Source: Curtobacterium sp. GC_Cur_3 (GTDB taxonomy: Bacteria > Actinomycetota > Actinomycetes > Actinomycetales > Microbacteriaceae). From it: 64,000 nucleotides of DNA. The notes under the pieces are model-generated. The model was not told the DNA's origin. It did not search any database and worked only from the letters and a program-made list of their open reading frames with translations. The DNA is taken from the NCBI RefSeq assembly GCF_026544205.1, contig NZ_JALNUI010000019.1, forward strand, positions 1-64,000, read 5' to 3'. Below are positions 41,489-55,308 of this stretch, in pieces. Each line of letters starts with the position of its first letter. The stretch's first letter is position 1. Both the position numbers and the translations under genes were made by a program.

Positions 41489-42805
41489 TCAGGCGACCGG
41501 GCTGAGCAGGTCGTCGACCGAGACCTCGACGTCGAGGATCCGGTTCGCCGCCCGGAGTCCGGACAGCAGGGCGCCGTGCACCGTCGCGGGGTCGTCCGAC
41601 CACGTGGCCTCGCCGGCGAGCTGGACCCGTCCGGACGGCGTGGCGAGCCGGTCGTGGTCGTCGACGGTCGCGCCGACGTGCAGGTACGAGTACGACCCGC
41701 GCGTGTAGGGGTCGGCACCCCACCGGGTGATCTGGACGGCGTCGGGCGTCGGGACGTCGGGGCCGTACATGTGGCGGATCGCGGCGAGGCCCTCGGCGAC
41801 GACCTCGTCGTCGGGCAGGCGCTCGAGCCGCCGGGCGCTGTCACCGCCGACGAGGGCCGCGAGCACGGGCACGCCCGTCACGCGGGACATGTCGTACCAG
41901 GAGTGCCAGTCGGAGCCGGCAGCACCCTGCTGGCGGATCACCCACGAGTCCCAGAACTTGACGGGGAAGCGCAGGAAGACCTTGTCGTACACGCCCATGC
42001 CGAGCCGCTCGATGGCGTCGGCGGCCGGAGCCTCGAGGGGCGGGTCGAACCGGACGTCGCCGGCCTGCAGGACGCCGAGGGGCACGGTCACGACGACGTG
42101 CTGGGCGCAGAACACCGAGCCGTCCGCGGTGGTCACCCGGACGTGGTCGTCGCGTTGCTCGACGAGGGTCACGACGGCCTCGGTGCGGATGTCGAGGCCC
42201 TCGGACAACGCGGTGACGTACTGCTGGTAGCCGCTGGGGAACACGACCTGGTCCCCGGGCAGGTGGTCGGGGTCGAGCCCGTGGGCGTCGATCTCCGCGG
42301 GAGGTGCGCCGGTGAAGTCCTCGGACCGGTGCGCGAGGTACTCCTCCACGCGGAGGGCCCGGCTGTCGCCCCAACCCAGGTCGGCGACGACCCGGGCGAC
42401 CACGTCGGCGTAGGTGGTGCCGGGAGCCGCGGCCTCGACCGCCGCGGGCAGCAGGTCCTCGACGGTGTGCAGGTCGGCCAGGAAGGCGCCGGCGGGGACC
42501 TCGGTCAGCCGTGCGCCGACGGGGTCGTGCCAGGCGATCGGGCGCCCCTCGAACTGGAAGCTCCCGACGGAGAACTCGACGGTCTCGATGTCGAGCGACT
42601 TCGCCATCGACCAGAGCGGGTTGCCGTCCACGCCGAGGATCCACGACGCTCCGAGGTCGACCGGCACACCGAGCGTGTCGTCGGTCCAGGTGCGCCCGCC
42701 GACCCGGTCGTGGGCTTCGAGCACGACGACGTCGACGCCGTTCAGCGCCAGGGCACGGGCGGTGGCGATGCCGGCGATCCCGGCTCCCACGACGATGACG
42801 TCCAC
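41489..42805 (-). CDS. FAD-dependent amine oxidase (MAO family)
   Basis: 438 aa. FAD-binding VVGAGIAGIATARAL at the start, LEAHDRVGGRTWT, and a C-terminal LAGEATWSDDPATVHGAL flavin-binding end typical of monoamine/polyamine oxidases. Oxidises an amine to an aldehyde or imine with O2; substrate unknown. GTG start. It lies 26 bp downstream of the GMC gene on the same strand, so it is probably the last gene of that operon. Confidence 0.88.
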   Translation of the reverse strand: MDVIVVGAGIAGIATARALALNGVDVVVLEAHDRVGGRTWTDDTLGVPVDLGASWILGVDGNPLWSMAKSLDIETVEFSVGSFQFEGRPIAWHDPVGARLTEVPAGAFLADLHTVEDLLPAAVEAAAPGTTYADVVARVVADLGWGDSRALRVEEYLAHRSEDFTGAPPAEIDAHGLDPDHLPGDQVVFPSGYQQYVTALSEGLDIRTEAVVTLVEQRDDHVRVTTADGSVFCAQHVVVTVPLGVLQAGDVRFDPPLEAPAADAIERLGMGVYDKVFLRFPVKFWDSWVIRQQGAAGSDWHSWYDMSRVTGVPVLAALVGGDSARRLERLPDDEVVAEGLAAIRHMYGPDVPTPDAVQITRWGADPYTRGSYSYLHVGATVDDHDRLATPSGRVQLAGEATWSDDPATVHGALLSGLRAANRILDVEVSVDDLLSPVA

Positions 42806-42831
42806 GTCGACCAGTCTGCACCCGTCGGTCG

Positions 42832-44421
42832 TCAGACGGCGGTGAGCAGTGCCTCGTCCCGGTCGGCCCGGACGTCGTCGCGGAGCATGCGGTCAGCGGT
42901 GCGGAGCGACAGCGCCATGATCGTCAGCGCCGGGTTCGCGATGAGGGAGCTCGGGAAGACCGAGTTGTCGACGATCCACAGGTTCGGCACGTCCCACGAC
43001 CGCCCGGCCGCGTCCACGACGGAGCTCGCCGCGTCGGTGCCCATCCGCGCCGTGCCGACGGTGTGCGCCGTGCGGTCGAGGACGCGGACGTCGTGGCCTC
43101 CCGCGGCCTCGACGATCGCGGTCATCGTGCGGACGGCGTGCCGGGTGATCGCGGCCTCGTTCTCACCGGGCGAGAAGCTGACGCGGGCCTTCGGCACCCC
43201 GTTGGCGTCGAGCTCGTCGGAGAGCACGAGCCGGTTGTCGTCGTACGGCAGGCACTCGGCGTTGATGCCGACGCCGGCCATGTACGGGTAGTCCTGGATC
43301 GCCCGGACGAGGGCGGAGCCGCGGAGCCCGCCGCCGCGCACGAGCGACGTCGTCAGCGTCTGTGGCTGGGCGCCGAGGCTCTGGATGAGGTAGCCCCCGG
43401 CGAAGTCGGCACCCTCGGGACGGATGAAGTCCTCGGTGATGATCGACGACGGGTAGCCGCGGTAGGACCGCATCGACTCGTCGAACTTCGCCCACACCTG
43501 GGTGGCCCCGTGCGCGGTGAAGTTGCGGCCGACCTGACCGCTGCTGTTCGCGAGCCCGGTGTGGAGCAGCAGGCGCGGGGTCTCGATCCCGCCGGCCGCG
43601 AGGACGAGCGCCCGGGTGCGCTGCCGGTGGTCGCGGCCGTCCTGGCGGTAGACGACGGCCTCGACCTCGCCGCGGGCGTCCAGCTCGATGCCGTGCACGA
43701 ACGCCCCAGGACGGATCTCGGCACCGAAGGCCACCGCGGCGGGCAGGTACGTCGTGTCCATCGACACCTTCGAGCCGTTGCGGCAGCCCTGGTGGCACGA
43801 CCCGCAGGCGACGCACGCCTGGCGGAGTCCGTGGTGCTCCTGCATCCGGTCCTCGGTCGTGAGCCCGACGGGGGCGTCGGTCGCGGTGATCCCGACCTCG
43901 GCAGCCCCGCGGATCATCATGTCCGAGGACGCGTTCCGCGCCGGCGGGCCCATCAGGTACCGGCGCTCGGGGTCCCACGGGTAGTGCGCGGGACCGGCGA
44001 CGCCCACGTCGTGTTCGGCCTGCTCGATGTACCGGACAAGGTCGGCGTGCTCGATCGGCCAGTCCTCGCCCTCACCCGAGTCGGTGCGCAGGTGGATGTC
44101 GTGCTCGTTGGGCCGCGGGGTGAACGCACCCCAGTGCAGCGTCGACCCGCCGACGCCGGTGCCGCTGTTGTTCGGACCGAAGGCGGTGGGTGCACCGCCG
44201 CCGCTGATGCGCTCGTCCATCCAGTTGATGTCCGCGGGCGCCTCGACCTCGTCCGGGGTGTGGTCGCCGGGCTCGGTGTTCGGGCCGGCCTCGAGCGCGA
44301 CGACACGGAGGCCCCGGCGCGCCAGGGTCGCGAGCAGCGGAGCGCCGCCGGCCCCGGTGCCGACGACGACCACGTCGACGATGTCGTCCTCGTCGTACCG
44401 GCGCTGGTTGGTCAGGTTCAT
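42832..44421 (-). CDS. GMC family oxidoreductase (gluconate/choline dehydrogenase-like)
   Basis: 529 aa. FAD-binding VVVGTGAGGAPLLATLARRG, GVGGSTLHWGAF, a Cys cluster (CVACGSCHQGCRNGSK) and the C-terminal GTARMG...NLWIVDNSVFPSS with the catalytic His region. The Cys-rich form usually works with a small 'subunit 3' protein and passes electrons to a cytochrome or acceptor. Here the subunit-3-like domain is fused to the upstream gene. Start 44421 overlaps that gene's stop by 4 nt; GGGAG ribosome site. Confidence 0.87.
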   Translation of the reverse strand: MNLTNQRRYDEDDIVDVVVVGTGAGGAPLLATLARRGLRVVALEAGPNTEPGDHTPDEVEAPADINWMDERISGGGAPTAFGPNNSGTGVGGSTLHWGAFTPRPNEHDIHLRTDSGEGEDWPIEHADLVRYIEQAEHDVGVAGPAHYPWDPERRYLMGPPARNASSDMMIRGAAEVGITATDAPVGLTTEDRMQEHHGLRQACVACGSCHQGCRNGSKVSMDTTYLPAAVAFGAEIRPGAFVHGIELDARGEVEAVVYRQDGRDHRQRTRALVLAAGGIETPRLLLHTGLANSSGQVGRNFTAHGATQVWAKFDESMRSYRGYPSSIITEDFIRPEGADFAGGYLIQSLGAQPQTLTTSLVRGGGLRGSALVRAIQDYPYMAGVGINAECLPYDDNRLVLSDELDANGVPKARVSFSPGENEAAITRHAVRTMTAIVEAAGGHDVRVLDRTAHTVGTARMGTDAASSVVDAAGRSWDVPNLWIVDNSVFPSSLIANPALTIMALSLRTADRMLRDDVRADRDEALLTAV

Positions 44422-45767
44422 CGTGTGGCTCCCGCCGGTTCCCATGCTTCGCGCTGCCCGGCTCCGAGGAGCAGGAAGCCCTGTTTGCGGACGCCGTCGC
44501 CACCGTTGGCGAAGCCGTCGTAGTCGATGTCGGCCATCGTGGCCGGGTGCGTGACCCAGTGCTTCGCCAGGTCGACGGCGGCGTCCTCGGCCCAGGCGCG
44601 GAGCTGCTCGGCGTCGAAGGGACCGGCGGCCGGCGTGTGCGTGCCGGCGGTGACGGCGTCGAGCACCGTGGCGAGGTGCTCGTCCGACCGTGCGGCCTCG
44701 GGCGCGAGGGCGTCGAGTCCGGCGCGGTAGGCCTCGACGTCCACCGGCAGGCCGTCCGGACGCCAGCCGTCACCGAGCCCGGCAGCGAGCTGGGCGTCGA
44801 CACGGAGCGCGAGGTCGATCGACCGCTCGCCGGGCTGCGGCACGACGACACGGGCGAGGGCCCGCAGCGTCTCGAGCTGCGCGGCCGACAGGGCCTTGGG
44901 CGCAGCGCCGGGGTCGTCGGCCAGCGACCGGATCGCCAGGATGCCGCGCGTCCGGGCGCTCACGCGGGGCGAGGCGAGGACGCGGACGCTGGTCGCCGGC
45001 ACGACGGGGCCCGGCGCGACGCGGCGTTCCCAGAACGCGCGGATGCGCTGGGCGACCTCGTCGGGACGTTCCCACGGCAGCAGGTGCGCTGCACCGGGGA
45101 CGACGTCGAGCTCGCCGGCGGTCCAGTGCGGCAGGTTCAGCGCCCGCTGGGCGTCGGTGCCGAGGTCGCCGTCGCCGACACCGGCCAGGATGAGTGCGGG
45201 CACGGGGTTCGGCGGGAACTGGGTGGACCAGTCCTCGCGGCTGCCGCGCACCAGCCAGTCGGTCCAGGCACGGGGATCGGCGCGCTGGACGTCGTGCACG
45301 GCCATGGCGTGCGGCTCCGGGGGCAGCCGGGAGTCGGTGTTCGCCTCGACGAAGGTGTCGGCCTCGTCCGGTCCGATCACGCCGTCGGCGGCCCAGCCCA
45401 GCATCGTGGCGCGGCGCTCGTCGTCCATCGGCTCGGGGGAGAGCGGGGACGCGGCGAGCAGGACCACGGCACGCAGCCCGAACAGGCCGTTCGCGCCGTT
45501 GATCGTCCGCGACGCCACGACCGAGGCGACCTTGCCGCCCATGGAGTGCCCGATGAGCACCCACTCGGTGGCGCCGCTGCGACCGACCGCCCGCTCGACG
45601 AGCTCGGCCATCTCCTCGACCGTCGTGCCGGTGACGGCGGAACTCCGGCCGAAGCCGGGCAGGTCGATGCCGATCAGGTCCAGGGTGCCGGCGAGACGGG
45701 CGCGGAGCGTCGCGAACTCCTCGGAACTCGACCCGAGGGCGTGGAGGCAGAACGCGGTGGCCGTCAT
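44418..45767 (-). CDS. Alpha/beta-hydrolase fused to gluconate 2-dehydrogenase subunit 3-like domain
   Basis: 449 aa. Residues 1-265: alpha/beta-hydrolase with IGIDLPGFGRSS, nucleophile LIGHSMGGKVA, and an acid/His pair at GVGDGDLG and AAHLLPWERP. From about 290 on: LSAAQLETLRALARVVVPQPG...WVTHPATMADIDYDGFANGGDG, resembling the subunit 3 family that pairs with GMC oxidoreductases. The ATGA overlap with the GMC gene supports a shared complex. ATG 45767 chosen (MTATAFCLHALG); another start at 45803 would add 12 polar residues. The domain assignment of the C-terminal half is moderate. Confidence 0.78.
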   Translation of the reverse strand: MTATAFCLHALGSSSEEFATLRARLAGTLDLIGIDLPGFGRSSAVTGTTVEEMAELVERAVGRSGATEWVLIGHSMGGKVASVVASRTINGANGLFGLRAVVLLAASPLSPEPMDDERRATMLGWAADGVIGPDEADTFVEANTDSRLPPEPHAMAVHDVQRADPRAWTDWLVRGSREDWSTQFPPNPVPALILAGVGDGDLGTDAQRALNLPHWTAGELDVVPGAAHLLPWERPDEVAQRIRAFWERRVAPGPVVPATSVRVLASPRVSARTRGILAIRSLADDPGAAPKALSAAQLETLRALARVVVPQPGERSIDLALRVDAQLAAGLGDGWRPDGLPVDVEAYRAGLDALAPEAARSDEHLATVLDAVTAGTHTPAAGPFDAEQLRAWAEDAAVDLAKHWVTHPATMADIDYDGFANGGDGVRKQGFLLLGAGQREAWEPAGATR

Positions 45768-45771
45768 GTCT

Positions 45772-45781
45772 GTAGTACTAC
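45772..45781. promoter_or_regulatory. Possible operator palindrome
   Basis: GTAGTACTAC, a perfect 10-bp palindrome five bases upstream of the hydrolase start, in the 132-bp divergent region with the ligase operon. No regulator gene is adjacent, so function is only suggested. Confidence 0.35.
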
Positions 45782-45899
45782 GGGTCTCCCCGCCGCCGTT
45801 CACAGCACGCTGTACCCCGCTGACACCGGTTTGTTACGACCGCGCGAAGTTCTCCCACGACGCAGGCCCACCCACGGGTCCCGGCGATAGGTTCCACAC

Positions 45900-48449
45900 A
45901 TGAGTGCAGAGCTGACGCTCGGCGCCGAGGAAGAGCTGCACCTCATCGACCTCGAGTCCGGCCGACTTTCCGCGAAGGCCCCGCGCCTTCTGCCCAAGCT
46001 GCCATCGGACCGCTTCGGCGCCGAACTGCAGCGCACGACCATCGAGACGAACACCCCCGTGGTGACGACGCTCGACGACCTGCGGCGGGTGATCGTCGAC
46101 CTGCGGAGCGAGCTCTCCGCGGCCATCGCCCCGGCGGGCGTCACCATCGCCGCCGTCGGGACCGCTCCCAGGTCCGAGTACGCCGACTTCGAGCTGACCT
46201 CGGGTGGCCGCTACGGCCGCATGCAGGAGCAGTACCGGATGCTCGTCGACGAACAGCTCATCTGCGGCCTGCAGGTGCACGTCGGGGTGAGCGACCGCGA
46301 CCTGGCGGTGGAGATCGCCCAGCGCGTGGCCCCGGTGCTGCCCGTGCTGCTGGCGCTCAGTGCGTCGAGTCCGTTCTGGAACGGGCAGGACACCGGGTAC
46401 GCGTCCTTCCGGAGCATCATCTGGCAGCGCTGGCCGTCCGCCGGCAGCTTCGGGCGGGTCGAGAACGCCGCCGAGTACGACCGGGTGCTCGACGACCTCA
46501 TCGCCTCGGGTGTGATCGCCGACAAGAAGATGGCCTACTTCGACGTGCGGCCGTCCTCGCACGCCCCGACGCTCGAGCTCCGGGTCTGCGACGCCACCCC
46601 CGTGGTCGACGACGCGGTCCTCATCGCCGGGCTCTTCCGCGCCGCCGTCCGTCGCGCCGAGAAGGTGATCGAGTCGGGCGCCGAGTGGCACCCCCGGAGC
46701 GAACCGCTGCACCGCGCGGCGATGTGGCAGGCGGCCCGCAGCGGCCTGAGCGGTGAACTCCTCGGCCTCGGCCAGCACCCGGAGCGGCTGCCCGCCGAGG
46801 TCGCCGTCCGGCAGCTCGTCTCCCGACTGCGTCCGGAGCTCGAGGAGCTCGGCGACTGGGGCACGGTGAGCGGCCTGCTCGAGGACACCCTGGCGCGCGG
46901 CAACTCCACCGACCGCCAGCGCACCGCGTACGCCGAGCGCGGGGAGCTCGACGACGTCGTGACCCAGGTCGTCGAGGACACCGCCGGCACGCCGTCCGGC
47001 CGCGACGAGCACCCGATCATCGCGATCCCGTCGTACCGGGTCCGCGCCGGTGACGAAGCCGTCGGTCCTGGTGCCCGTCCGCGCCCGGCCTTCCGCGACC
47101 TCGCCGCGTTCTTCCGTGGCTGGGACGCCGACACGACCATCGAGCACTGCACCGCCCGCGACGTCTGGACCCGCGAGCACGAGATCGGGTTCGTCGTCGA
47201 CGGCGGGGTGCAGCAGTTCGGCTGCGACCTCGTCCCGCGCACGGTCAGCGCGTACGAGTGGGCGCAGCTGGAGCAGGGCCTCGGGCAGCGTGCACGGGCC
47301 ATCGAGCTGTTCCTCCGCGATGCCTACGGCCCGCGCCGCATCGTGGCCGACGGCGCGATGGACGAGCGCGACGTCGTCGGCAAGAACGGCTGGGACCCGG
47401 ACGCCGAGCGGCTCCCGCAGCACGCCGTCCGCGCACCGGTGATGGGCTTCGACCTGGTCCGCAACGAGTTCGGCGGCTGGCGGGTGCTCGAGGACAACGT
47501 CCGCTCGCCCTCCGGTGTCGCCTACGGCCTGGCGCTCCGCGAGCTGATGGACGACGTGGTGCCCGACGCGCCGCGTCCCGACCGGCTGCGTGACCCCTCC
47601 GGCGTCCCGGCGCTCCTCCGGGAGACCCTGCGGCGGAACGCCGCCGCCGTGACCGGCAACCAGGACCCGGTCCTGGCGCTGGTGACCGACGGCCCCACCG
47701 CCGGCGCGTGGTACGAGCACCGCCGGCTGTCCGACGGGGCCGGGATGCGCCTCCTGACCGGGTCCGACCTCACCGTCCGGGACGGCCGCGTCGTCGAGGC
47801 GGCGACCGGCGACGTGCTGGACGCGCTGTACCTGCGGGTCGACCGCGACGTGCGCGCCCTGGCGAGCGAGCACGCGCCGGACCTCGGCGCCCAGGTCCTC
47901 GACGTCGCTGCCGCCGGGCACGTCTACCTGGCGAACGCCCCCGGCAACGCCCTCGTCGACGACAAGGCCATGTACGTCAACGTGCCGGACCTGATCTGGT
48001 ACTACCTCGAGGAGAAGCCGCTGCTCGAGTCGGTGCCGACCTACCGCACCAGCATCGAGGGCGAGCGGCTGTCCGTGCTCGACCGCGTCGGGGAGCTCGT
48101 GACGAAGCCCGTCGACGGCGAGGGCGGACGCGGGGTCCTCATCGGTCCGAGCGCGAGCGCACCAGAGGTCGCCGAGCGCCGCCGGGAGATCGCGGCGGAC
48201 CCGGCCGGCTGGGTCGGACAAGAGGTGGTGCAGCTCTCCTCGCACCCGACCATCGGTCCGGCCGGACTCGACCCGCGGCACGTCGACCTGCGCGCGTTCG
48301 TCTACGTCACGGGCACCGGTCCGGACGACACCCACCTCGCCGACGTCGCACTCACCCGCGTCGCACCCGAGGGCAGCATGGTCGTGAACTCGTCGCGGGG
48401 CGGCGGCGCGAAGGACACCTGGATCATCGGGACGACAGGGGAACGCTGA
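45900..48449 (+). CDS. GCS2/YbdK carboxylate-amine ligase fused to circularly permuted ATP-grasp
   Basis: 849 aa, two ligase modules. Residues 1 to about 365 match YbdK-type glutamate-cysteine ligase-2 proteins (GAEEELHLIDL, IETNTPVVTTLDDLR, CGLQVHVGVSDRDLA, LELRVCDATPVVDD). About 395-849 is a circularly permuted type-2 ATP-grasp (MGFDLVRNEFGGWRVLEDN, SPSGVAYGL, DDKAMYVNVPDLIWYYLEEK, VTKPVDGEGGRGVLIGP, HVDLRAFVYV). Both fold types activate a carboxylate with ATP and join an amine. The gene leads a three-gene operon with overlapping starts, followed by an amidotransferase and a peptidase, so a short peptide amide is a plausible product (inference). Confidence 0.88.
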   Translation: MSAELTLGAEEELHLIDLESGRLSAKAPRLLPKLPSDRFGAELQRTTIETNTPVVTTLDDLRRVIVDLRSELSAAIAPAGVTIAAVGTAPRSEYADFELTSGGRYGRMQEQYRMLVDEQLICGLQVHVGVSDRDLAVEIAQRVAPVLPVLLALSASSPFWNGQDTGYASFRSIIWQRWPSAGSFGRVENAAEYDRVLDDLIASGVIADKKMAYFDVRPSSHAPTLELRVCDATPVVDDAVLIAGLFRAAVRRAEKVIESGAEWHPRSEPLHRAAMWQAARSGLSGELLGLGQHPERLPAEVAVRQLVSRLRPELEELGDWGTVSGLLEDTLARGNSTDRQRTAYAERGELDDVVTQVVEDTAGTPSGRDEHPIIAIPSYRVRAGDEAVGPGARPRPAFRDLAAFFRGWDADTTIEHCTARDVWTREHEIGFVVDGGVQQFGCDLVPRTVSAYEWAQLEQGLGQRARAIELFLRDAYGPRRIVADGAMDERDVVGKNGWDPDAERLPQHAVRAPVMGFDLVRNEFGGWRVLEDNVRSPSGVAYGLALRELMDDVVPDAPRPDRLRDPSGVPALLRETLRRNAAAVTGNQDPVLALVTDGPTAGAWYEHRRLSDGAGMRLLTGSDLTVRDGRVVEAATGDVLDALYLRVDRDVRALASEHAPDLGAQVLDVAAAGHVYLANAPGNALVDDKAMYVNVPDLIWYYLEEKPLLESVPTYRTSIEGERLSVLDRVGELVTKPVDGEGGRGVLIGPSASAPEVAERRREIAADPAGWVGQEVVQLSSHPTIGPAGLDPRHVDLRAFVYVTGTGPDDTHLADVALTRVAPEGSMVVNSSRGGGAKDTWIIGTTGER

Positions 48450-50263
48450 TGTGCGGACTCGCGGGCGAGATCCGGTTCGACGGCACCTCCCCGGACGTCG
48501 GGGCTGTCGCACGGATGACCGGCTGTCTGGCGCACCGCGGTCCCGACGGCGACGGACTGTGGGCGCGTGGTCCGGTCGCGCTCGGGCACCGTCGGCTGTC
48601 GATCGTGGACCTGTCGACGGCCGGGGCGCAGCCGATGGTCGTGCCGCGCCTCGGCCTGACGATCGCCTACAACGGGATGGTCTACAACTACCGGCAGCTC
48701 CGCGACGAGCTGCACGGCAAGGGCCACACCTTCTTCTCGACGTCCGACACCGAGGTCATCGTCACCGCGTACGCCGAGTGGGGCACCGCGTTCGTCGAGC
48801 ACCTGATCGGGATGTTCGCGATCGCGATCTGGGAGCACGGCAGCGGTCGACTCGTCCTGGCGCGCGACCGGCTCGGGATCAAGCCGCTCTACGTCGCCGC
48901 GGTGCCCGGCGGCCTGCGGTTCGCCAGCTCGTTGCCCGCGATCCTCGCCGGTGACCGGAACGACGACGGCACCACCGGCGCGCACGCCGTCGACACCTCC
49001 GTCGACCCGGTCGCCCTGGCGTCCTACATGACCTTCCACTCGATCGTGCCGGCACCACGCACGATCCTGTCCGGCGTCGGCAAGCTCCCACCTGCGACGG
49101 TCCGAGTCGTCGAACCGGACGGCACCGCGACGGACACGACCTACTGGGAACCCAGGTTCGAGCGTGACCCGGCGAAGGCGGACTGGTCCGATGCGGACTG
49201 GCAGCAGGCCTTCATCGACTCGCTCCGCACGGCCGTCGAGCGCCGCATGGTCGCCGACGTGCCCGTCGGGGTGCTGCTGTCCGGCGGCATCGACTCGTCC
49301 CTCGTGGTCGCGCTGCTCGCCGAGGCCGGCCAGCGGGACCTCGCCACGTTCAGCATCGGCTTCGAGTCGGCAGGCGGGGAGTCCGGCGACGAGTTCGAGT
49401 ACTCCGACGAGGTCGCGCGCCACTTCGGTACCGACCACCACCGCATCCGGATCCCGTCGTCGCGGCTGCTGGACGGGATCGACGGGTCCATCCAGGCGAT
49501 GAGCGAACCGATGGTCAGCCACGACTGCGTGGCCTTCTGGCTGCTGTCGCAGGAGGTCTCGCAGCACGTCAAGGTCGTGCAGTCCGGCCAGGGCGCCGAC
49601 GAGGTCCTCGGCGGGTACAGCTGGTACCCGCCGCTCGCCGACGTCCCGCGCGACCAGGCCGCCGAGGCGTACCGGTCCGTCTTCATGGACCGCCGGTGGG
49701 CGTCCCTGCAGGGCTTGCTCGGGGAGCGTTGGCGGAGCGACGACGACACCCCGTCGGCCTTCGTCGACCGGGAGTTCGCCCGCCCCGGCGCCGAGACGAG
49801 CGTCGACGCAGCGCTCAGGAGCGACACCACGATCATGCTCGTGGACGACCCGGTCAAGCGCGTGGACAACATGACCATGGCGTGGGGCCTCGAAGCCCGC
49901 GTGCCGTTCCTGGACCACGAGTTCGTCGAGCTCGCCGGCGCGGTCCCGCCGGCCCTGAAGCTCGCCGACGGCGGCAAGGGCGTCATGAAACGAGCGGCGC
50001 GTGGCATCGTCCCCGACGCCGTCATCGACCGCACCAAGGGGTACTTCCCGGTGCCGGCGATCCGGCAGCTCGAGGGCCCGTACCTGGAGCGCGTCCGGCA
50101 GGCGCTGCACGCCCCGGAGGCGCGGGAACGCGGGCTCTTCGACCCGGGTACGGTCGAGCGGATGCTCCAGGACCCGAACACGACGAGGACCGAGATCGGC
50201 GCGAACGCGCTCTGGCAGCTCGGCCTGATCGAGATGTGGCTGCAGCACCAGGGGGTGCGGTGA
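48449..50263 (+). CDS. Asparagine synthase-type amidotransferase, N-acetylglutaminylglutamine amidotransferase-like
   Basis: 604 aa. Class II glutaminase (Cys2 nucleophile in MCGLAGEIRFDG; LGHRRLSIVDLS; AYNGMVYNY) plus synthetase domain with the PPi loop VLLSGGIDSSLV. The features ASYMTFHSIVPAPRTIL and KLPPATVRVVEPDG match my recollection of the AsnO-like enzyme that amidates N-acetylglutaminylglutamine in the NAGGN osmolyte pathway rather than asparagine synthetase AsnB. One-base overlap (TGATG) with the upstream ligase and 4-nt overlap (GTGA) with the peptidase gene. Confidence 0.85.
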   Translation: MCGLAGEIRFDGTSPDVGAVARMTGCLAHRGPDGDGLWARGPVALGHRRLSIVDLSTAGAQPMVVPRLGLTIAYNGMVYNYRQLRDELHGKGHTFFSTSDTEVIVTAYAEWGTAFVEHLIGMFAIAIWEHGSGRLVLARDRLGIKPLYVAAVPGGLRFASSLPAILAGDRNDDGTTGAHAVDTSVDPVALASYMTFHSIVPAPRTILSGVGKLPPATVRVVEPDGTATDTTYWEPRFERDPAKADWSDADWQQAFIDSLRTAVERRMVADVPVGVLLSGGIDSSLVVALLAEAGQRDLATFSIGFESAGGESGDEFEYSDEVARHFGTDHHRIRIPSSRLLDGIDGSIQAMSEPMVSHDCVAFWLLSQEVSQHVKVVQSGQGADEVLGGYSWYPPLADVPRDQAAEAYRSVFMDRRWASLQGLLGERWRSDDDTPSAFVDREFARPGAETSVDAALRSDTTIMLVDDPVKRVDNMTMAWGLEARVPFLDHEFVELAGAVPPALKLADGGKGVMKRAARGIVPDAVIDRTKGYFPVPAIRQLEGPYLERVRQALHAPEARERGLFDPGTVERMLQDPNTTRTEIGANALWQLGLIEMWLQHQGVR

Positions 50264-52242
50264 GCGCCGTCCGGCCAGGAGGCGCGACCCACGTCGCGTC
50301 CGCACCGCGCGCCGAGTCCGTGGCCGGTCCCGACACCGTGGCCGGTCCCGACACCGGGGCCGGTACCGCCGCCGACCTCGGCGAGCGGCTGACCGCTGCC
50401 TGGGGCTCGTGGGGCCCGACCATGACGCGGAGCGCCCGCCGCGTGGCGTTCGTCAGCGACCGACACGGCACGCCGGAGGTCTTCGTGCAGGACGTCGTCG
50501 TCGACGGACCCCTGCCCGAGCCGACGCGCATCACGCTGAGCGACGACCCCGTCATCCGCGTCTCGTGGTCGTCCGACGGGGAGTGGCTCGCCGTGGCCAT
50601 CGCGACCGACGGCGGCGTGAAGCAGCAGGTCTGGGTGGTCCGACCCGACGGCACCGACCCCGCGCAGATCGCCGGGTCCCGGTACCAGCACGCCGAGCTC
50701 GGCCCGTGGAGCCGCAGCGGCCACCGGGTCGTCATCACGCTGCCCTCGACCGAGGCCGACCAGCCTGCCCGCGCGTACCTCGTCGACCCCGTGTCCGGCG
50801 ACCGCGACGACCTGGCCCTCGGGGAGCTCATCCACGTGCTCGACCTCTCCGTCGAGGAGCGCCTCGTGGTGCTGCGCGACGGGCAGCGCGGCCACGAGTT
50901 CGTCGTCGTCGTGGACCGCCTCACCGACGAGGACCACCCGCTCCTCACCGATCCACCGTCCGGCTCGGCCGAGATCGCGTTCATGCGACCGTCGCCCGCC
51001 AGCGAGACCAGCCCGCTCGTCGCCTACGTCGCCACCGAGGCCGGCGCACCCCGACGCCAACTCGTCGCCCAGCCCGTCGGCCCGCACGGGTGGCGCGGAC
51101 GCCCCCGGAGCATCGTCGCCCGACCGGACGCCGAACTCGAGTTCCTCGACGCCGACGACGCCGGCCGCACCGTGCTGCTCGGCTGGAACGTCGACGGGCG
51201 CAGCGAGCTCGAGCTCATCAACACGCACGACGCCTCGCGCACCCCTGTGCCCGACCTGCCCGGGGAGGTCGTCACCGACCCCGTGCTGAGCCGCGACGGC
51301 CGGAGCGTCCTGCTCGCGGTCGAGGGGCCGACCCACCCGCGGGAGCTCTGGCGCCTGGACACCAACGCGTTGACGTGGAGCCGCGTCACGGGCGTGCCGG
51401 ACCTGCCCGCCGTCGCGCTCGTCGAGCCGACCCTGGAACGCGTGCGGGCGCGGGACGGACTCGAGCTGACCGGGTGGCTGTACCGGGCGGTGGAGCCGGC
51501 CGTGTCGTCGACGCTGGCTGTGGACGGGACCGGCACCGAGCCTCCCGTCCGTGGTGTCCGTCGCGCAGCGATGATCCACCTGCACGGCGGACCGGAGTCG
51601 CAGGAGCGGCCGACGTTCTCCGCGCAGCACCAGGCGCTCGCCGCGGCGGGCATCACGGTGTTCGCCCCGAACATCCGCGGCTCGTCCGGGTACGGGCACG
51701 AGTTCGTGCACGCCGACGACCTCGGGTTGCGGTGGAACGCGCTCGCGGACGTCGTCGACTGCGCGCGGTGGCTCGTGACGAACGACCTGGCCGACCGGTC
51801 CCGGGTGGCGGTCGAGGGCCGGTCCTACGGCGGCTACGCCACGCTCGCGTCGCTGGCCTTCACGCCCGACGTGTTCGCGGCCGGGGTCGCGGTGTGCGGG
51901 ATGAGCGACTTCGCGACGTTCTACCGGGACACCGAGCCGTGGATCGCGGCAGCGGCGGCGACGAAGTACGGCCACCCGGTGGACGACGCCGCACTGCTCG
52001 ACGCCCTGTCGCCGATGCGGGCGATCGACGAGGTCACGGCGCCGCTGCTGGTCGTGCACGGCGAACTCGACACGAACGTGCCGATCGGTGAGGCGCACCA
52101 GGTCGTCGCCGCGCTGCGGGAGCGGTCGCACGACGTCGGCTACCTGGAGCTCGAGGGCGAGGGGCACGAGTACCGCCGCCGGTCGTCCCAGGCGCTGCTC
52201 GTGCGGCGGATGGTCGAGTTCCTGGCGGCGCGCTTGGCGTGA
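50260..52242 (+). CDS. S9 family prolyl oligopeptidase
   Basis: 660 aa. N-terminal beta-propeller (about 45-400) and C-terminal alpha/beta-hydrolase with Ser in VEGRSYGGYATL, Asp in VHGELDTNVPIG and His in EGEGHEYRR; HGGPESQERP supplies the oxyanion site. Acylaminoacyl/dipeptidyl peptidase-like, cytoplasmic (no signal peptide). The first 30 residues hold an imperfect AGPDT repeat. GTG start overlaps the amidotransferase stop by 4 nt. In known NAGGN trios the third gene is an M42 peptidase, so S9 may play the matching turnover role. Confidence 0.88.
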   Translation: MSAVRPGGATHVASAPRAESVAGPDTVAGPDTGAGTAADLGERLTAAWGSWGPTMTRSARRVAFVSDRHGTPEVFVQDVVVDGPLPEPTRITLSDDPVIRVSWSSDGEWLAVAIATDGGVKQQVWVVRPDGTDPAQIAGSRYQHAELGPWSRSGHRVVITLPSTEADQPARAYLVDPVSGDRDDLALGELIHVLDLSVEERLVVLRDGQRGHEFVVVVDRLTDEDHPLLTDPPSGSAEIAFMRPSPASETSPLVAYVATEAGAPRRQLVAQPVGPHGWRGRPRSIVARPDAELEFLDADDAGRTVLLGWNVDGRSELELINTHDASRTPVPDLPGEVVTDPVLSRDGRSVLLAVEGPTHPRELWRLDTNALTWSRVTGVPDLPAVALVEPTLERVRARDGLELTGWLYRAVEPAVSSTLAVDGTGTEPPVRGVRRAAMIHLHGGPESQERPTFSAQHQALAAAGITVFAPNIRGSSGYGHEFVHADDLGLRWNALADVVDCARWLVTNDLADRSRVAVEGRSYGGYATLASLAFTPDVFAAGVAVCGMSDFATFYRDTEPWIAAAAATKYGHPVDDAALLDALSPMRAIDEVTAPLLVVHGELDTNVPIGEAHQVVAALRERSHDVGYLELEGEGHEYRRRSSQALLVRRMVEFLAARLA

Positions 52243-52273
52243 GCGGGGCGGAGCCGTGCCGGACTCGGTCGCT

Positions 52274-52339
52274 CCGGTGCGAGGTTGGCCACCCCGTGCG
52301 AGCTTGATCGTCCGCACGGGGTGCGCAACCTCGCACCGG
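52274..52339 (+). terminator. Long hairpin ending the ligase operon
   Basis: Arms CCGGTGCGAGGTTG / CAACCTCGCACCGG, a 3x3 internal loop, then ACCCCGTGC/GCACGGGGT around a 14-base loop. Total 23 base pairs, 31 bases past the peptidase stop. Confidence 0.75.
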
Positions 52340-52397
52340 GCGGGGGACCGAGCACGGTGCGAAGTCCGTGCATCCTGGATTCTCTAGGATCGAGGGC

Positions 52398-53114
52398 GTG
52401 ACCACGACGATGCCCGGCTTCGGTGCGCACCGCATCACGCAGCGCGGGCTCCGTGACCGCGTCTACGACCGGGTGCTCGACGTCCTGATGGGGCACGACG
52501 TCGAACCCGGCATGCGCCTGTCGATCGACGGGCTCGCCCGGACGCTCGGGGTCTCGCCGACCCCCGTGCGCGAGGCCCTCGTGCAGCTCGAGCGCACCGG
52601 GCTCGTCGTGCGGGAGGCCAACAAGGGCTACCGGGTCGCCCCGCCGCTGCAGGGGGACCAGCTCGAGGCGCTGTTCGACGCCCGGCTCATCATCGAGAGC
52701 GGCGCCGTCGAGCTCGCGGCCCGCGGGGACGTCGCCACGCTGCGTGACCGGCTCGGGTCGGCGCTCGCCGAGCAGTCGGCCGTCGTCGAGGAGATCGCCG
52801 TGGTCGGGGTGGCAGCGGCGTCCGAGGAGCTGATGGCGCGGTTCTTCCGCAGCGACTGGCAGTTCCACCAGGTGCTGTTCGACGCGACGCGGAACCCGTT
52901 CCTGCAGGAGATGTCCGAGGTCATCACGACCCGGGTGCACCGGATGCGCCAGATCGTGGAGGGCGGGGACGACGACACCGACCGTGCCGTGCAGGAGCAC
53001 CGGGCGATCGTCGAGGCCCTGGCGGTCGACCCCGCGTCGGCCGTCGAGGCGATGCGCGTGCACATCGACGCCGTGCGGCTGCGGTCGCGGGCGGACGCGT
53101 CGCACGGAGTCTGA
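52398..53114 (+). CDS. GntR family regulator, FCD (FadR) subfamily
   Basis: 238 aa. Winged helix with DGLARTLGVSPTPVREALVQLERTGLVV, then an FCD ligand domain containing ARLIIESGAVELA, DWQFHQVLF, EHRAIVEAL and HIDAVRLRS with the metal-binding His residues. It probably represses the operon 0.2 kb downstream, which has a clear palindromic operator. GTG start with GAGGG; a looser inverted repeat ATCCT-N9-AGGAT at 52372-52390 overlaps its own leader and may allow autoregulation. Confidence 0.9.
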   Translation: MTTTMPGFGAHRITQRGLRDRVYDRVLDVLMGHDVEPGMRLSIDGLARTLGVSPTPVREALVQLERTGLVVREANKGYRVAPPLQGDQLEALFDARLIIESGAVELAARGDVATLRDRLGSALAEQSAVVEEIAVVGVAAASEELMARFFRSDWQFHQVLFDATRNPFLQEMSEVITTRVHRMRQIVEGGDDDTDRAVQEHRAIVEALAVDPASAVEAMRVHIDAVRLRSRADASHGV

Positions 53115-53121
53115 GCCAGGC

Positions 53122-53162
53122 GGACGCCCGTGCCGAGGTTCGGGTCAGCGGCACGGGCGTCC
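53122..53162 (+). terminator. Terminator of the GntR gene
   Basis: 14-bp perfect stem GGACGCCCGTGCCG with its complement and a 13-base loop, 7 bases after the stop. It isolates the regulator from the operon that follows. Confidence 0.85.
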
Positions 53163-53255
53163 TGATCCTCCGAGCCCGGTCTTCTTCGGAGCCCCCGGAC
53201 GGGGGGTTTGGTCGATTGTTGAACAAGACGGTTGCGTGATCCTGCTGACGGGGTA

Positions 53256-53273
53256 TCTTTCCTATAGGAAAGA
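53256..53273. promoter_or_regulatory. Operator palindrome upstream of catabolic operon
   Basis: TCTTTCCTATAGGAAAGA, a perfect 18-bp palindrome in the 150 bp between the GntR terminator and the first structural gene, 38 bases before its start. Position and symmetry fit a GntR/FadR-type operator overlapping the promoter. Confidence 0.75.
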
Positions 53274-53311
53274 GGTTCGACGACGAGCCTCGACATGCGA
53301 AGGAGCATCCC

Positions 53312-54358
53312 GTGAACCACGCACAGGACTGGGTCCAGCAGGACTGGGACACGACGACCTGGACCGCCGAGACATGGCCGATCGCCGCCTGTCTCCACGG
53401 GTTCCCGGCCGTCGGCACCGATGGCATCGCCGTGCACGACGCGGCTCCCGAGGTGTGGGACGACATCCTCGGGCAGGTGGCGGCCGCGGGCTTCTCGCTG
53501 GCCGAGGTCGCGGACAGCCACATCCGCCCCGCTGACCTCGAGGCCTCTCGCCGCGACGAGTTCCTGGCGATCGCGCGGTCGCACGGCGTCGGCATCCCGT
53601 CGGTGCACCTGCAGCGTCGCAGCGTCATCCAGCCCGGGCACGAGGAGGACAACCTCGCCTACGCGCACCGCACGATCGACGCCGCTGCCGAGTGGGGCAT
53701 GCAGGTCTTCTCGACGGGGCTGCACCAGCCGTTCAACGACGCCCAGAAGCGGGCGCTCTGGTTCTGGACCGCGCAGGGCCCGAAGGACCCCGACGACCCC
53801 GAGGTGTGGCAGGCCGCGGTCTCCCGGCTCCGCGAACTCGGGGAGCACGCGGCATCGGTCGGGCTGCCGATGGCGCTCGAGATGTACGAGGACACGTACC
53901 TCGGCACCGCGGACAGCGCCGTGCGCCTGATCGAGGACATCGGACTCGACACCGTCGGCCTGAACGCGGACGTGGCGAACCTGATCCGCCTGCACCGTCC
54001 GGTGGAGGACTGGAAGGAGCTGTTCGCCAAGACGCTCCCGTACACGAACTACCTGCACGTGAAGAACTACACGCGGGACGAGGCCGGCGACGGGAGCTGG
54101 GCGACGAGCGTGCCGAGCACGATGGAGACCGGGCTCATCAACTACCGTCAGGTCCTCCGCGACGCCGTGGCGAACGGCTTCCGCGGCATCCTCATGACCG
54201 AGCAGTACGGCGGCGACAGCCTCGGCGTCTGCGCCACGAACCAGCGCTACATCCGGTCCGTCCTCGCCACCGCGAAGTTCGGCGACTCCACCGGCACCAC
54301 CGGTGCCCGCCCGACCACCCGCACCACCGTCACCACCACCGAAGGAGCAGTTCGATGA
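53312..54358 (+). CDS. Sugar phosphate isomerase/epimerase (AP-endonuclease-2 TIM barrel)
   Basis: 348 aa. TIM-barrel features: LEMYEDTYLG (metal Glu), LNADVANLIRLH, HVKNYTRD and MTEQYGGDS near the C-terminus. The family includes xylose isomerase-like enzymes and EryC-type tetrulose-4-phosphate racemase of erythritol catabolism. Given the kinase and triosephosphate isomerase-like genes downstream, a tetrulose or tetrulose-phosphate epimerase is possible. GTG start with AAGGAG. A Thr-rich C-terminal tail is unusual. ATGA overlap with the next gene. Confidence 0.82.
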   Translation: MNHAQDWVQQDWDTTTWTAETWPIAACLHGFPAVGTDGIAVHDAAPEVWDDILGQVAAAGFSLAEVADSHIRPADLEASRRDEFLAIARSHGVGIPSVHLQRRSVIQPGHEEDNLAYAHRTIDAAAEWGMQVFSTGLHQPFNDAQKRALWFWTAQGPKDPDDPEVWQAAVSRLRELGEHAASVGLPMALEMYEDTYLGTADSAVRLIEDIGLDTVGLNADVANLIRLHRPVEDWKELFAKTLPYTNYLHVKNYTRDEAGDGSWATSVPSTMETGLINYRQVLRDAVANGFRGILMTEQYGGDSLGVCATNQRYIRSVLATAKFGDSTGTTGARPTTRTTVTTTEGAVR

Positions 54359-55308
54359 GCACCCTCGACATCGCCGTCGTCGGATCCGGCTACATGGGCG
54401 GCGGGATCGCCCAGGTCCTCGCGCTCGCCGGCCACACCGTCCGCATCGCCGACGTCTCCGGCGAGATCGCCCGGGCGAACCTCGACCGGCTGCTCGTCGA
54501 GACGCAGCAGTTCGTCGACGACGGGCTCTTCCCCGCCGACGCCGTCGAGCGTGTGCGCGAACACCTCAGCGCCGCCGAGAGCATCGAGGACGCGGTCGCC
54601 ACGGCCGACTTCATCGAGGAGGCCGTGCCCGAGAAGCTCGCGATCAAACACGAGACCCTCCGACGGATCACGGCTGCTGCCCGGCCCGACGCGGTGACCG
54701 GCTCGAACACGTCGACGATCCTCATCGAGTCCCTCGCCGAGGCCGTCACCGGTCCCGAGCGGTTCCTCGGGGTCCACTTCTCCAACCCCGCGCCCTTCAT
54801 CCCGGGCGTCGAGCTCATCCCGCACCCGACCACCGGGGACCACGCGGTCCAGGTCGCCGAGGCGGTGGTCGCCGCGACGGGCAAGCAGTCGGCGCGGGTG
54901 AAGGACTCCACCGGCTTCGTGCTGAACCGGCTGCAGTACGCCCTGTTCGAGGAGGCGACGAAGATCGCCGACGAGGGCATCGCGACCCCGGACGACATCG
55001 ACACGATCGTCCGGACGACGTTCGGGTTCCGCCTGCCGTTCTTCGGTCCGTTCGCGATCGCCGACATGGCCGGGCTCGACGTCTACGCCTTCTGCTTCGA
55101 GTCGCTGCAGACCCGCTGGCCGGAGCGCTTCGCCACGCCGTCGTCGCTCCAGCAGCACGTCGACGCCGGGGAGCTCGGCACGAAGTCCGGTGCCGGGTAC
55201 CTGCAGGTGCCGGCCGACCGCACGCCGGAGCTCGTCGCCTACCGCAACCGTGCCTACGTCGCCATGCAGAAGCTCCTCGACGAGCTCGGCCCGGCACCGA
55301 TCCACTGA
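54355..55308 (+). CDS. 3-hydroxyacyl-CoA dehydrogenase family NAD-dependent dehydrogenase
   Basis: 317 aa. Rossmann AVVGSGYMGGGIAQVLALAGH, EEAVPEKLAIKHETL, SNTSTILIESLAEA, HFSNPAPFIPGVELIPHP (catalytic His) and a C-terminal helical domain. Beyond fatty-acid enzymes the family includes L-gulonate 3-dehydrogenase and carnitine dehydrogenase; in this sugar-catabolic operon a hydroxy-acid or polyol substrate is more likely than acyl-CoA. GAAGGAG ribosome site and ATGA overlap. Confidence 0.83.
   Translation: MSTLDIAVVGSGYMGGGIAQVLALAGHTVRIADVSGEIARANLDRLLVETQQFVDDGLFPADAVERVREHLSAAESIEDAVATADFIEEAVPEKLAIKHETLRRITAAARPDAVTGSNTSTILIESLAEAVTGPERFLGVHFSNPAPFIPGVELIPHPTTGDHAVQVAEAVVAATGKQSARVKDSTGFVLNRLQYALFEEATKIADEGIATPDDIDTIVRTTFGFRLPFFGPFAIADMAGLDVYAFCFESLQTRWPERFATPSSLQQHVDAGELGTKSGAGYLQVPADRTPELVAYRNRAYVAMQKLLDELGPAPIH

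Follow-up and report, generated by a model that had tools for sequence, protein, structure and literature searches.

Does an amidotransferase of the kind that makes the osmolyte N-acetylglutaminylglutamine amide (NAGGN) serve the same product when it is encoded next to a ligase of another fold? This question is raised by a locus of Curtobacterium sp. GC_Cur_3, located within the first 64,000 nt of contig NZ_JALNUI010000019.1, i.e., the whole stretch of DNA that was analyzed (hereafter the window). The source genome amounts to 3.76 Mb in 66 contigs and the locus is a trio of genes at positions 45900–52242, placed head to tail on the + strand. They encode a fusion of a GCS2 ligase domain with a circularly permuted (CP) ATP-grasp domain, an AsnO-type glutamine-dependent amidotransferase and an S9 family peptidase (table 1). 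The coordinates, the profile matches, and the overlaps of 1 and 4 bases bear out the three overlapping genes of the original prediction. The trio probably specifies, with some way to go before certainty, a peptide-amide pathway built like that of NAGGN on another ligase, with an N-capped product.

In the described NAGGN system (asnO-ngg-M42; Sinorhizobium, Pseudomonas, and Azospirillum), the partners of the amidotransferase are the ligase Ngg, a GNAT plus ATP-grasp protein, and an M42 peptidase (PMC8070244, accessible text). The same partners, which had been named in the original prediction, are found in an annotated Azospirillum plasmid as the amidotransferase, ngg, and an "osmoprotectant NAGGN system M42 family peptidase." The window shares with this system the amidotransferase family and the tight operon with a peptide-bond ligase and a peptidase, but it has GCS2 and CP-ATP-grasp domains where Ngg stands, and S9 in place of M42. 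Ngg is absent from the genome of the window, where the best match to its model TIGR03103 reaches 26.9 bits (cut-off 569); similarly, in 14 control genomes every match stays below this cut-off. No M42 gene is found at the trio, whose peptidase belongs to S9 (PF00326), and M42 was not searched for elsewhere in the genome.

The Amidotransferase of the Trio

The amidotransferase of the window matches TIGR03104, the model of N-acetylglutaminylglutamine amidotransferases, with 909.3 bits (cut-off 570.1). On the contrary, it fails NF006949, the equivalog model of the asparagine synthetase AsnB (277.7 bits vs. cut-off 499). It is 57.4% identical to AsnO of S. meliloti 1021. The mean identity of fusion-linked to Ngg-linked AsnO is 62.6%, compared with 68.1% within the Ngg-linked group and 32.4% to Escherichia coli AsnB. 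The resemblance to the NAGGN type is thus confirmed and clustering with AsnB was not seen.

The residues of the active sites are in place. Cys2 is, presumably, the glutaminase nucleophile; its invariance in the AsnO alignment is no test, because the rows had been trimmed to [MVL]CG beforehand (L166, without such a start, was left out). The SGGIDSS stretch is taken here as the pyrophosphate-loop motif of the synthetase domain. In E. coli AsnB, T322-T323-x-R325 (Met = 1) is, as we assume, part of the aspartate site; in four AsnO partner types it is replaced by a shortened Ser-His, with one Ngg row differing at His. Seven columns separate fusion-linked from Ngg-linked AsnO, when at least 85% of one residue is demanded in each group and the residues differ. 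Since AsnO is little changed in sequence and the aspartate-site segment of AsnB is replaced, the same chemistry is expected, and the enzyme has probably kept its job, namely to amidate an N-acylated amino acid at the C-terminus, in the simplest case glutamine. Leu387 and Gly388 were considered as fusion-specific marks of AsnO and were ruled out, as they track lineage rather than partner.

The Fusion Protein and the S9 Peptidase

The N-terminal half of the fusion is a full GCS2 domain, as in the YbdK/GCS2 ligases (TIGR02050, PRK13517), with the GhExE motif and the conserved E/H/R residues. It differs from these ligases in being fused to a CP-ATP-grasp domain and linked to AsnO and S9. The fusion passes TIGR02050 with 265.7 bits (cut-off 176.4). 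Residues E10, E12, E42, E49, H127, R171, R217, E226, R228, and D231 are conserved in the AsnO-linked rows and 20 paralogues, and YbdK carries Asp in place of E42. According to the accessible part of PMC2588565, in GCS2 enzymes, which have the GhExE motif, a carboxylate (usually the γ-carboxylate of glutamate) is phosphorylated and then attacked by the amine of an amino acid.

The C-terminal half spans a complete PF14403 domain (330.2 bits, cut-off 32; model positions 1–374 of 374 covered), i.e., a CP-ATP-grasp of type 2 like 3n6x, from which it differs by its fusion to GCS2. E531 and N533 of this domain, residues with a putative functional role, do not vary in 16 aligned fusions. In a comparison with 17 other PF14403 proteins and 4 of the DUF1028 type (described below), the 27 fusion rows were set apart with a Shimodaira–Hasegawa-like approximate likelihood ratio test (SH-aLRT) support of 94. 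Genome-wide, PF14403 has one match, which is the fusion, and GCS2 has three including the fusion. The best named relatives of the protein are from Curtobacterium. An AlphaFold model of the fusion, based on 16 sequences, had a mean predicted local distance difference test score (pLDDT) of 56.6 and was not used.

The S9 protein matches PF00326 with 156.4 bits (E 9.7e-46, cut-off 22.6). The best solved chain is 5l8s, titled "Amino acyl peptidase," followed by an S9 peptidase, prolyl oligopeptidase, and acylamino-acid-releasing enzymes. These structure matches are weakly suggestive of a capped substrate.

Distribution of the Partners among Actinomycetota

TIGR03104 was found in 46 of 396 Actinomycetota genomes that had been drawn evenly. 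TIGR03103 is above its cut-off in 30 of these 46 and in fragments in 2 more, and the remaining 14 lack any Ngg match at E 1e-50. A GCS2-fold ligase adjoins AsnO in 12 of these 14 Ngg-less genomes, namely as the fusion in four (G000, G086, G308, and G386), without CP-ATP-grasp in five (G023, G128, G193, G246, and G121), and with GCS2 and CP-ATP-grasp as separate genes in three (G130, G237, and G379). The other two have a CP-ATP-grasp beside AsnO (G076) and S9 only (G298). No same-strand GCS2 was found at 38 loci of Ngg-type amidotransferases, many with flanks of 1.5 kb and some fetched twice. Full-length fusions at E 1e-120 exist in 5 of the 396 genomes; the fifth (G317; incomplete, 87%) has no TIGR03104 match.

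In the family of the window, TIGR03104 is present in 46 of 398 genomes, including 7 of the 10 genomes listed from the same genus. Forty of the 48 matches in the family were fetched and 34 adjoin the fusion, with L259 seen only as CP-ATP-grasp and S9. Another same-strand GCS2 adjoins AsnO at one locus (L237) and five have no same-strand match to the queries, one of which (L232) carries a divergent GCS2 (PF04107 E 1.5e-54). Two genomes, G492 and G798, have two TIGR03104 copies each, and L223, L238, L234, and L236 were judged by eye to be Microbacteriaceae TIGR03104 proteins in other contexts.

A form with GCS2, AsnO, and S9 is called the Streptomyces type here. At a plasmid locus of Streptomyces fungicidicus, the genes are annotated as glutamate--cysteine ligase, N-acetylglutaminylglutamine amidotransferase, and alpha-beta hydrolase, and G023, G193, and G246 group with this plasmid form in the GCS2 tree. 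The same gene order is found in G128, which has the same genus code. PF14403 has no match anywhere in these four genomes. Therefore, of the two carboxylate activations that had been proposed for making a dipeptide, the one by CP-ATP-grasp is not needed everywhere.

In L237 (5983–10629), the genes of an M20 peptidase, a GCS2, and an AsnO (TIGR03104, 868.3 bits) follow one another head to tail with overlaps; the best NCBIfam match of the M20 protein is a dipeptidase, below its cut-off (302.9 vs. 441). As the peptidases adjoining AsnO come from M42, S9, and M20, a dedicated peptidase is favored as part of the logic. A further arrangement consists of CP-ATP-grasp, AsnO, and DUF1028 genes (L145, L146, L147, and L158), the last three of which also have a very divergent GCS2. 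The evidence for DUF1028 is from Pfam in L145 and L147 and from tblastn in L146, and a contig end cuts L158. Genes like those of ABC transporters were seen around L145 by eye. With Ngg absent from the genome, GCS2 next to AsnO in 12 of 14 genomes and peptidases of S9, M20, and M42 recurring, the earlier proposal that the NAGGN logic has been rebuilt on other folds gains support.

Modularity of the Trio

The fusion loci compared are the best 80 of 234 matches in named genomes, 19 of them titled Curtobacterium. Fusion, AsnO, and S9 occur together in 54 of the 80 (one with little downstream room). Both AsnO and S9 are missing from 17 loci that have 3.8 kb or more after the fusion, and from 1 short locus. 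AsnO alone follows the fusion in 2 loci with room and 3 short ones, and S9 alone in 2 and 1, respectively. Among the 74 loci with room, AsnO and S9 are thus both present in 53, both missing in 17, and alone in 2 and 2, respectively. The Fisher p of 1.2e-12 for their coupling ignores relatedness and is not to be read as a probability. The grouping of fusion, AsnO, and S9 is not due to chance.

Twenty-three of the 26 genomes whose fusion locus lacks AsnO or S9 were tested, and TIGR03104 is present in 6 and absent in 17. The expected co-occurrence of the trio in relatives was consequently found in part: it holds for the 54 loci and is contradicted by these 17 genomes, with AsnO and S9 mostly traveling together. 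In L134, L136, and L144, AsnO sits with Ngg elsewhere and the fusion retains S9. The Blastococcus genome of L108 has both Ngg-type and fusion-type AsnO. In Herbiconiux, L139 and L098 have the fusion and the next conserved block in common, at a distance of 0.4 kb in L139 and of 3.75 kb in L098. This empty site indicates that AsnO and S9 were gained or lost there as a unit; the other locus pairs that were compared alongside gave no such clean picture. The trio thus combines a ligase with a cassette of AsnO and S9, presumably for amidation and recycling.

In the genome of L136 (G411, contig C2; L214 and L215), the fusion with S9 and a separate AsnO with Ngg are about 10 kb apart on one strand of one contig. 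In L085, AsnO and S9 are each apparently split over two frames in the assembly.

Phylogeny of AsnO and GCS2

The 132 rows of AsnO were reduced to 112 and then to 70 by dropping 18 partial or duplicate loci, rows shorter than 541 residues, and rows at least 88% identical. In the tree, the rows of the fusion, of the Streptomyces type, and of AsnO with S9 form one set of 39 (SH-aLRT 94). An approximately unbiased test against one clade of all AsnO linked to GCS2 or CP-ATP-grasp (p 0.002) was discarded, as the AsnO-S9 rows L149 and L175 were misplaced on the Ngg side.

In the GCS2 tree, 6 Streptomyces-type and 27 fusion rows make up one starred set (33 rows, SH-aLRT 96). In L150, AsnO adjoins a GCS2 of another subfamily, and the tests reject a clade uniting this GCS2 with the fusion type (p 2.4e-5). 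The topology tests on GCS2 left out 14 of the 27 fusion rows, and the paralogous GCS2 loci L187–L190, found by no tblastn query, were also omitted.

Residue 580 of AsnO

All 27 Ngg-linked rows carry Leu or Ile at residue 580 of AsnO, and the 43 remaining rows all carry Arg, Lys, Ser, or Thr. Forty-five loci were added later, 43 of them readable at this position, with Leu in 3 Ngg-linked rows and Arg in 33 of 34 rows with a same-strand GCS2. The exceptions are Leu in L237 (same-strand GCS2) and Met in L232 (divergent GCS2). These later loci are hardly independent, since 16 are at least 99% identical to proteins already in the first set and the rest mostly fall in the same clade; moreover, the residue was chosen as the best of all columns, and only 2 independent pairs lie on starred branches (sign test p 0.5). 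Residue 580 may be a hint of a different N-terminal cap. The C-terminal motif of AsnO also follows the partner, being [LI]TPLRG in many Ngg-linked proteins and RTxxGxNxLWQ in the S9-linked clade, with L237 and L232 again as exceptions.

Proposed Pathway and Alternative Explanations

The gene order, the intact active-site residues, the absence of Ngg, the conservation of AsnO across partner types, and the linkage of AsnO with more than one GCS2 subfamily are read from the sequences; for the substrates, the product, and the osmotic role, we infer the following. The GCS2-fold ligase would make an N-capped, probably γ-glutamyl, peptide. Where present, the CP-ATP-grasp domain would form a second amide bond, giving a longer or doubly capped peptide. 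AsnO would then move the ammonia of glutamine onto the C-terminal carboxylate to yield an amide, as in NAGGN, and the S9 peptidase may hydrolyze the capped peptide for recycling once it is no longer needed. The predicted product is an N-capped amide of glutamine, small and either neutral or zwitterionic, that could act as a compatible solute or another stress metabolite. Glutamine 1-amides with an N-cap are known as neutral solutes in two cases, NAGGN and N-α-carbamoyl-glutamine amide (PMC1224877). A γ-glutamyl-glutamine amide, or a longer form with CP-ATP-grasp, would be the third N-capped glutamine amide solute.

Several points weigh against this reading. The fusion can stand alone and, since it persists without TIGR03104 in 17 of the 23 genomes tested, amidation of its product may not be required. 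Some AsnO genes have S9 but no GCS2 next to them (G298/L149 and Streptomyces L175), and others have none of the queried partners (L223, L234, L236, and L238). The AsnO tree is compatible with one common origin of every Ngg-less AsnO (p 0.30 and 0.27), hence repeated recruitment rests on the GCS2 tree; there, the DUF1028-type GCS2 has no firm place (p 0.37) and may or may not be a separate recruitment. The substrate of GCS2 may be glutamate or glutamine, and the GCS2 part passes NF010041, a model of glutamate--cysteine ligases (354.3 bits vs. cut-off 332). Nine proteins of the neighborhood (41489–55305) were scanned with Pfam, and none was recognized as an osmotic regulator, a transporter, or the product of a salt gene. 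A sigma-B-like motif is present in 3 of 84 upstream regions of fusions and in none of 4 of the Streptomyces type.

The fusion may itself make N-acetylglutaminylglutamine, for instance from N-acetylglutamate or N-acetylglutamine and glutamine, so that the product of the trio is ordinary NAGGN. The small alteration of AsnO between its Ngg-linked and fusion-linked types (the seven columns mentioned above) is in favor of this, and two ligase domains could cover both an amidation and a peptide bond. However, an acetyltransferase domain was not found by Pfam in the trio, the Streptomyces-type form manages with GCS2 alone, and residue 580 differs between Ngg-linked AsnO and the others apart from the two later exceptions. 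Ordinary NAGGN is an unlikely product.

In a second explanation, the fusion makes a γ-glutamyl thiol or tags proteins, and AsnO and S9 modify the product. Neighborhoods of CP-ATP-grasp, GCS2, alpha-E, and Ntn-hydrolase genes were reportedly described by Iyer et al. in 2009, with a proposed role in tagging. The match to NF010041 and the occurrence of the fusion without AsnO fit a thiol or tagging pathway, but the equivalog models of EgtA and of the plant and cyanobacterial enzymes of glutathione synthesis are far from reached (22.6–33.2 bits vs. cut-offs of 249–463). None of alpha-E, Ntn-hydrolase, and transglutaminase is among the nine scanned proteins, small tag-like proteins not having been searched for, and the AsnO partner is of the NAGGN kind. 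We consider such a pathway quite improbable.

That the amidotransferase is the asparagine synthetase of the cell, with incidental neighbors, is rejected as highly improbable: it is the sole PF00733 match of the genome and passes the general model TIGR01536 (417.5 bits vs. cut-off 267.1), but S. meliloti AsnO passes that model equally well (430.6), the AsnB model fails, the identity to AsnB is low, and PF00733 is absent at E 1e-20 in 17 of 17 fusion-bearing relatives without an AsnO gene, which therefore live without any such synthetase.

If the peptide-amide pathway is real, a known two-enzyme osmolyte pathway has been rebuilt around a different ligase fold. The label of a NAGGN amidotransferase would then be placed on genes that probably have a product other than NAGGN, as in the 14 Ngg-less genomes out of 46; the S. 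fungicidicus plasmid gene would be an example. The minimal form of GCS2, AsnO, and S9 could yield a new compatible solute in Streptomyces. In a broader and more tentative proposal, which we put at somewhat below even chances, AsnO may be an exchangeable module for capping C-termini with an amide, used on at least two unrelated ligases (Ngg and the GCS2 fold with or without CP-ATP-grasp) and with unrelated peptidases (M42, S9, and M20), so that actinobacteria of soil and plants, including Streptomyces, make unrecognized stress solutes, i.e., glutamine amides with a γ-glutamyl or another N-cap. Under this proposal, many of the genes that bear the name N-acetylglutaminylglutamine amidotransferase would have a different product.

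In the part of the literature covered, from which most subscription papers are missing, no paper was recognized that pairs AsnO with a GCS2 or a CP-ATP-grasp. The nearest printed oddity is the asnO–dipeptidase–"ngg" locus of Frankia, which shares with the window a high-identity AsnO and a peptidase gene in between (PMC5563000). The Frankia "Ngg" is <15% identical to other Ngg proteins, with the dipeptidase gene lying between it and asnO, and the family of this partner gene is not stated in the accessible text of that paper.

Genome Setting and Gene Layout

Table 1. Positions in the window of the genes, domains, motifs, and signals of the trio.
Feature	Position	Strand	Basis
GCS2 + CP-ATP-grasp fusion gene, 849 residues	45900..48449	+	Profile and structure matches
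GCS2 (glutamine-synthetase-fold ligase) domain, residues 7–283	45918..46748	+	PF04107 E 7.6e-54; YbdK structure 1r8g E 4.7e-26
GhExE motif G8-A9-E10-E11-E12 (GAEEE; Mg/ATP site of GCS2)	45921..45935	+	Invariant in 16 aligned fusions
CP-ATP-grasp domain, residues 446–822	47235..48365	+	PF14403 E 2e-98; structure 3n6x E 3.2e-76
AsnO-type glutamine-dependent amidotransferase gene, 604 residues	48449..50263	+	TIGR03104 match
Cys2 of AsnO (MCG at residue 1)	48452..48454	+	Position read from sequence
SGGIDSS of the synthetase domain, residues 278–284	49280..49300	+	S278, G279, and G280 identical in all four AsnO groups
S9 family peptidase gene, 660 residues, GTG start	50260..52242	+	PF00326 match
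Putative catalytic triad of S9: Ser522 (GRSYGG), Asp604 (HGELD), His636 (GHEYR)	51823..52167	+	Inferred from motifs
TANNNT (-10-like) hexamer TAGGTT, 6 bases 5' of the fusion ATG; candidate promoter	45888..45893	+	Consensus match only
Long GC-rich hairpin after the S9 gene	52262..52350	+	-67.5 kcal/mol, z -8.4 vs. 200 shuffles

The fusion and AsnO genes meet at TGATG, where the start of AsnO lies inside the stop codon of the fusion, and the AsnO and S9 genes at GTGA, where the start of S9 lies over the stop of AsnO. A simple scan gave no promoter at the trio. With TAGGTT this close to the ATG of the fusion, the mRNA looks leaderless; 76 of 84 fusion loci have a TANNNT at most 20 nt before their start, a count for which no chance expectation was computed. 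A simple terminator scan found no terminator with a T-run after the S9 gene, and the hairpin there is the probable end of the transcription unit.

Downstream, at 52368, a GntR-type regulator follows. The divergent upstream neighbor (44418–45803) is an alpha/beta hydrolase, which belongs to a divergent run at 41489–45803 with a flavin amine oxidase and a GMC oxidoreductase. This hydrolase has about 200 extra residues without a Pfam match and is present in one cluster of 13 loci.

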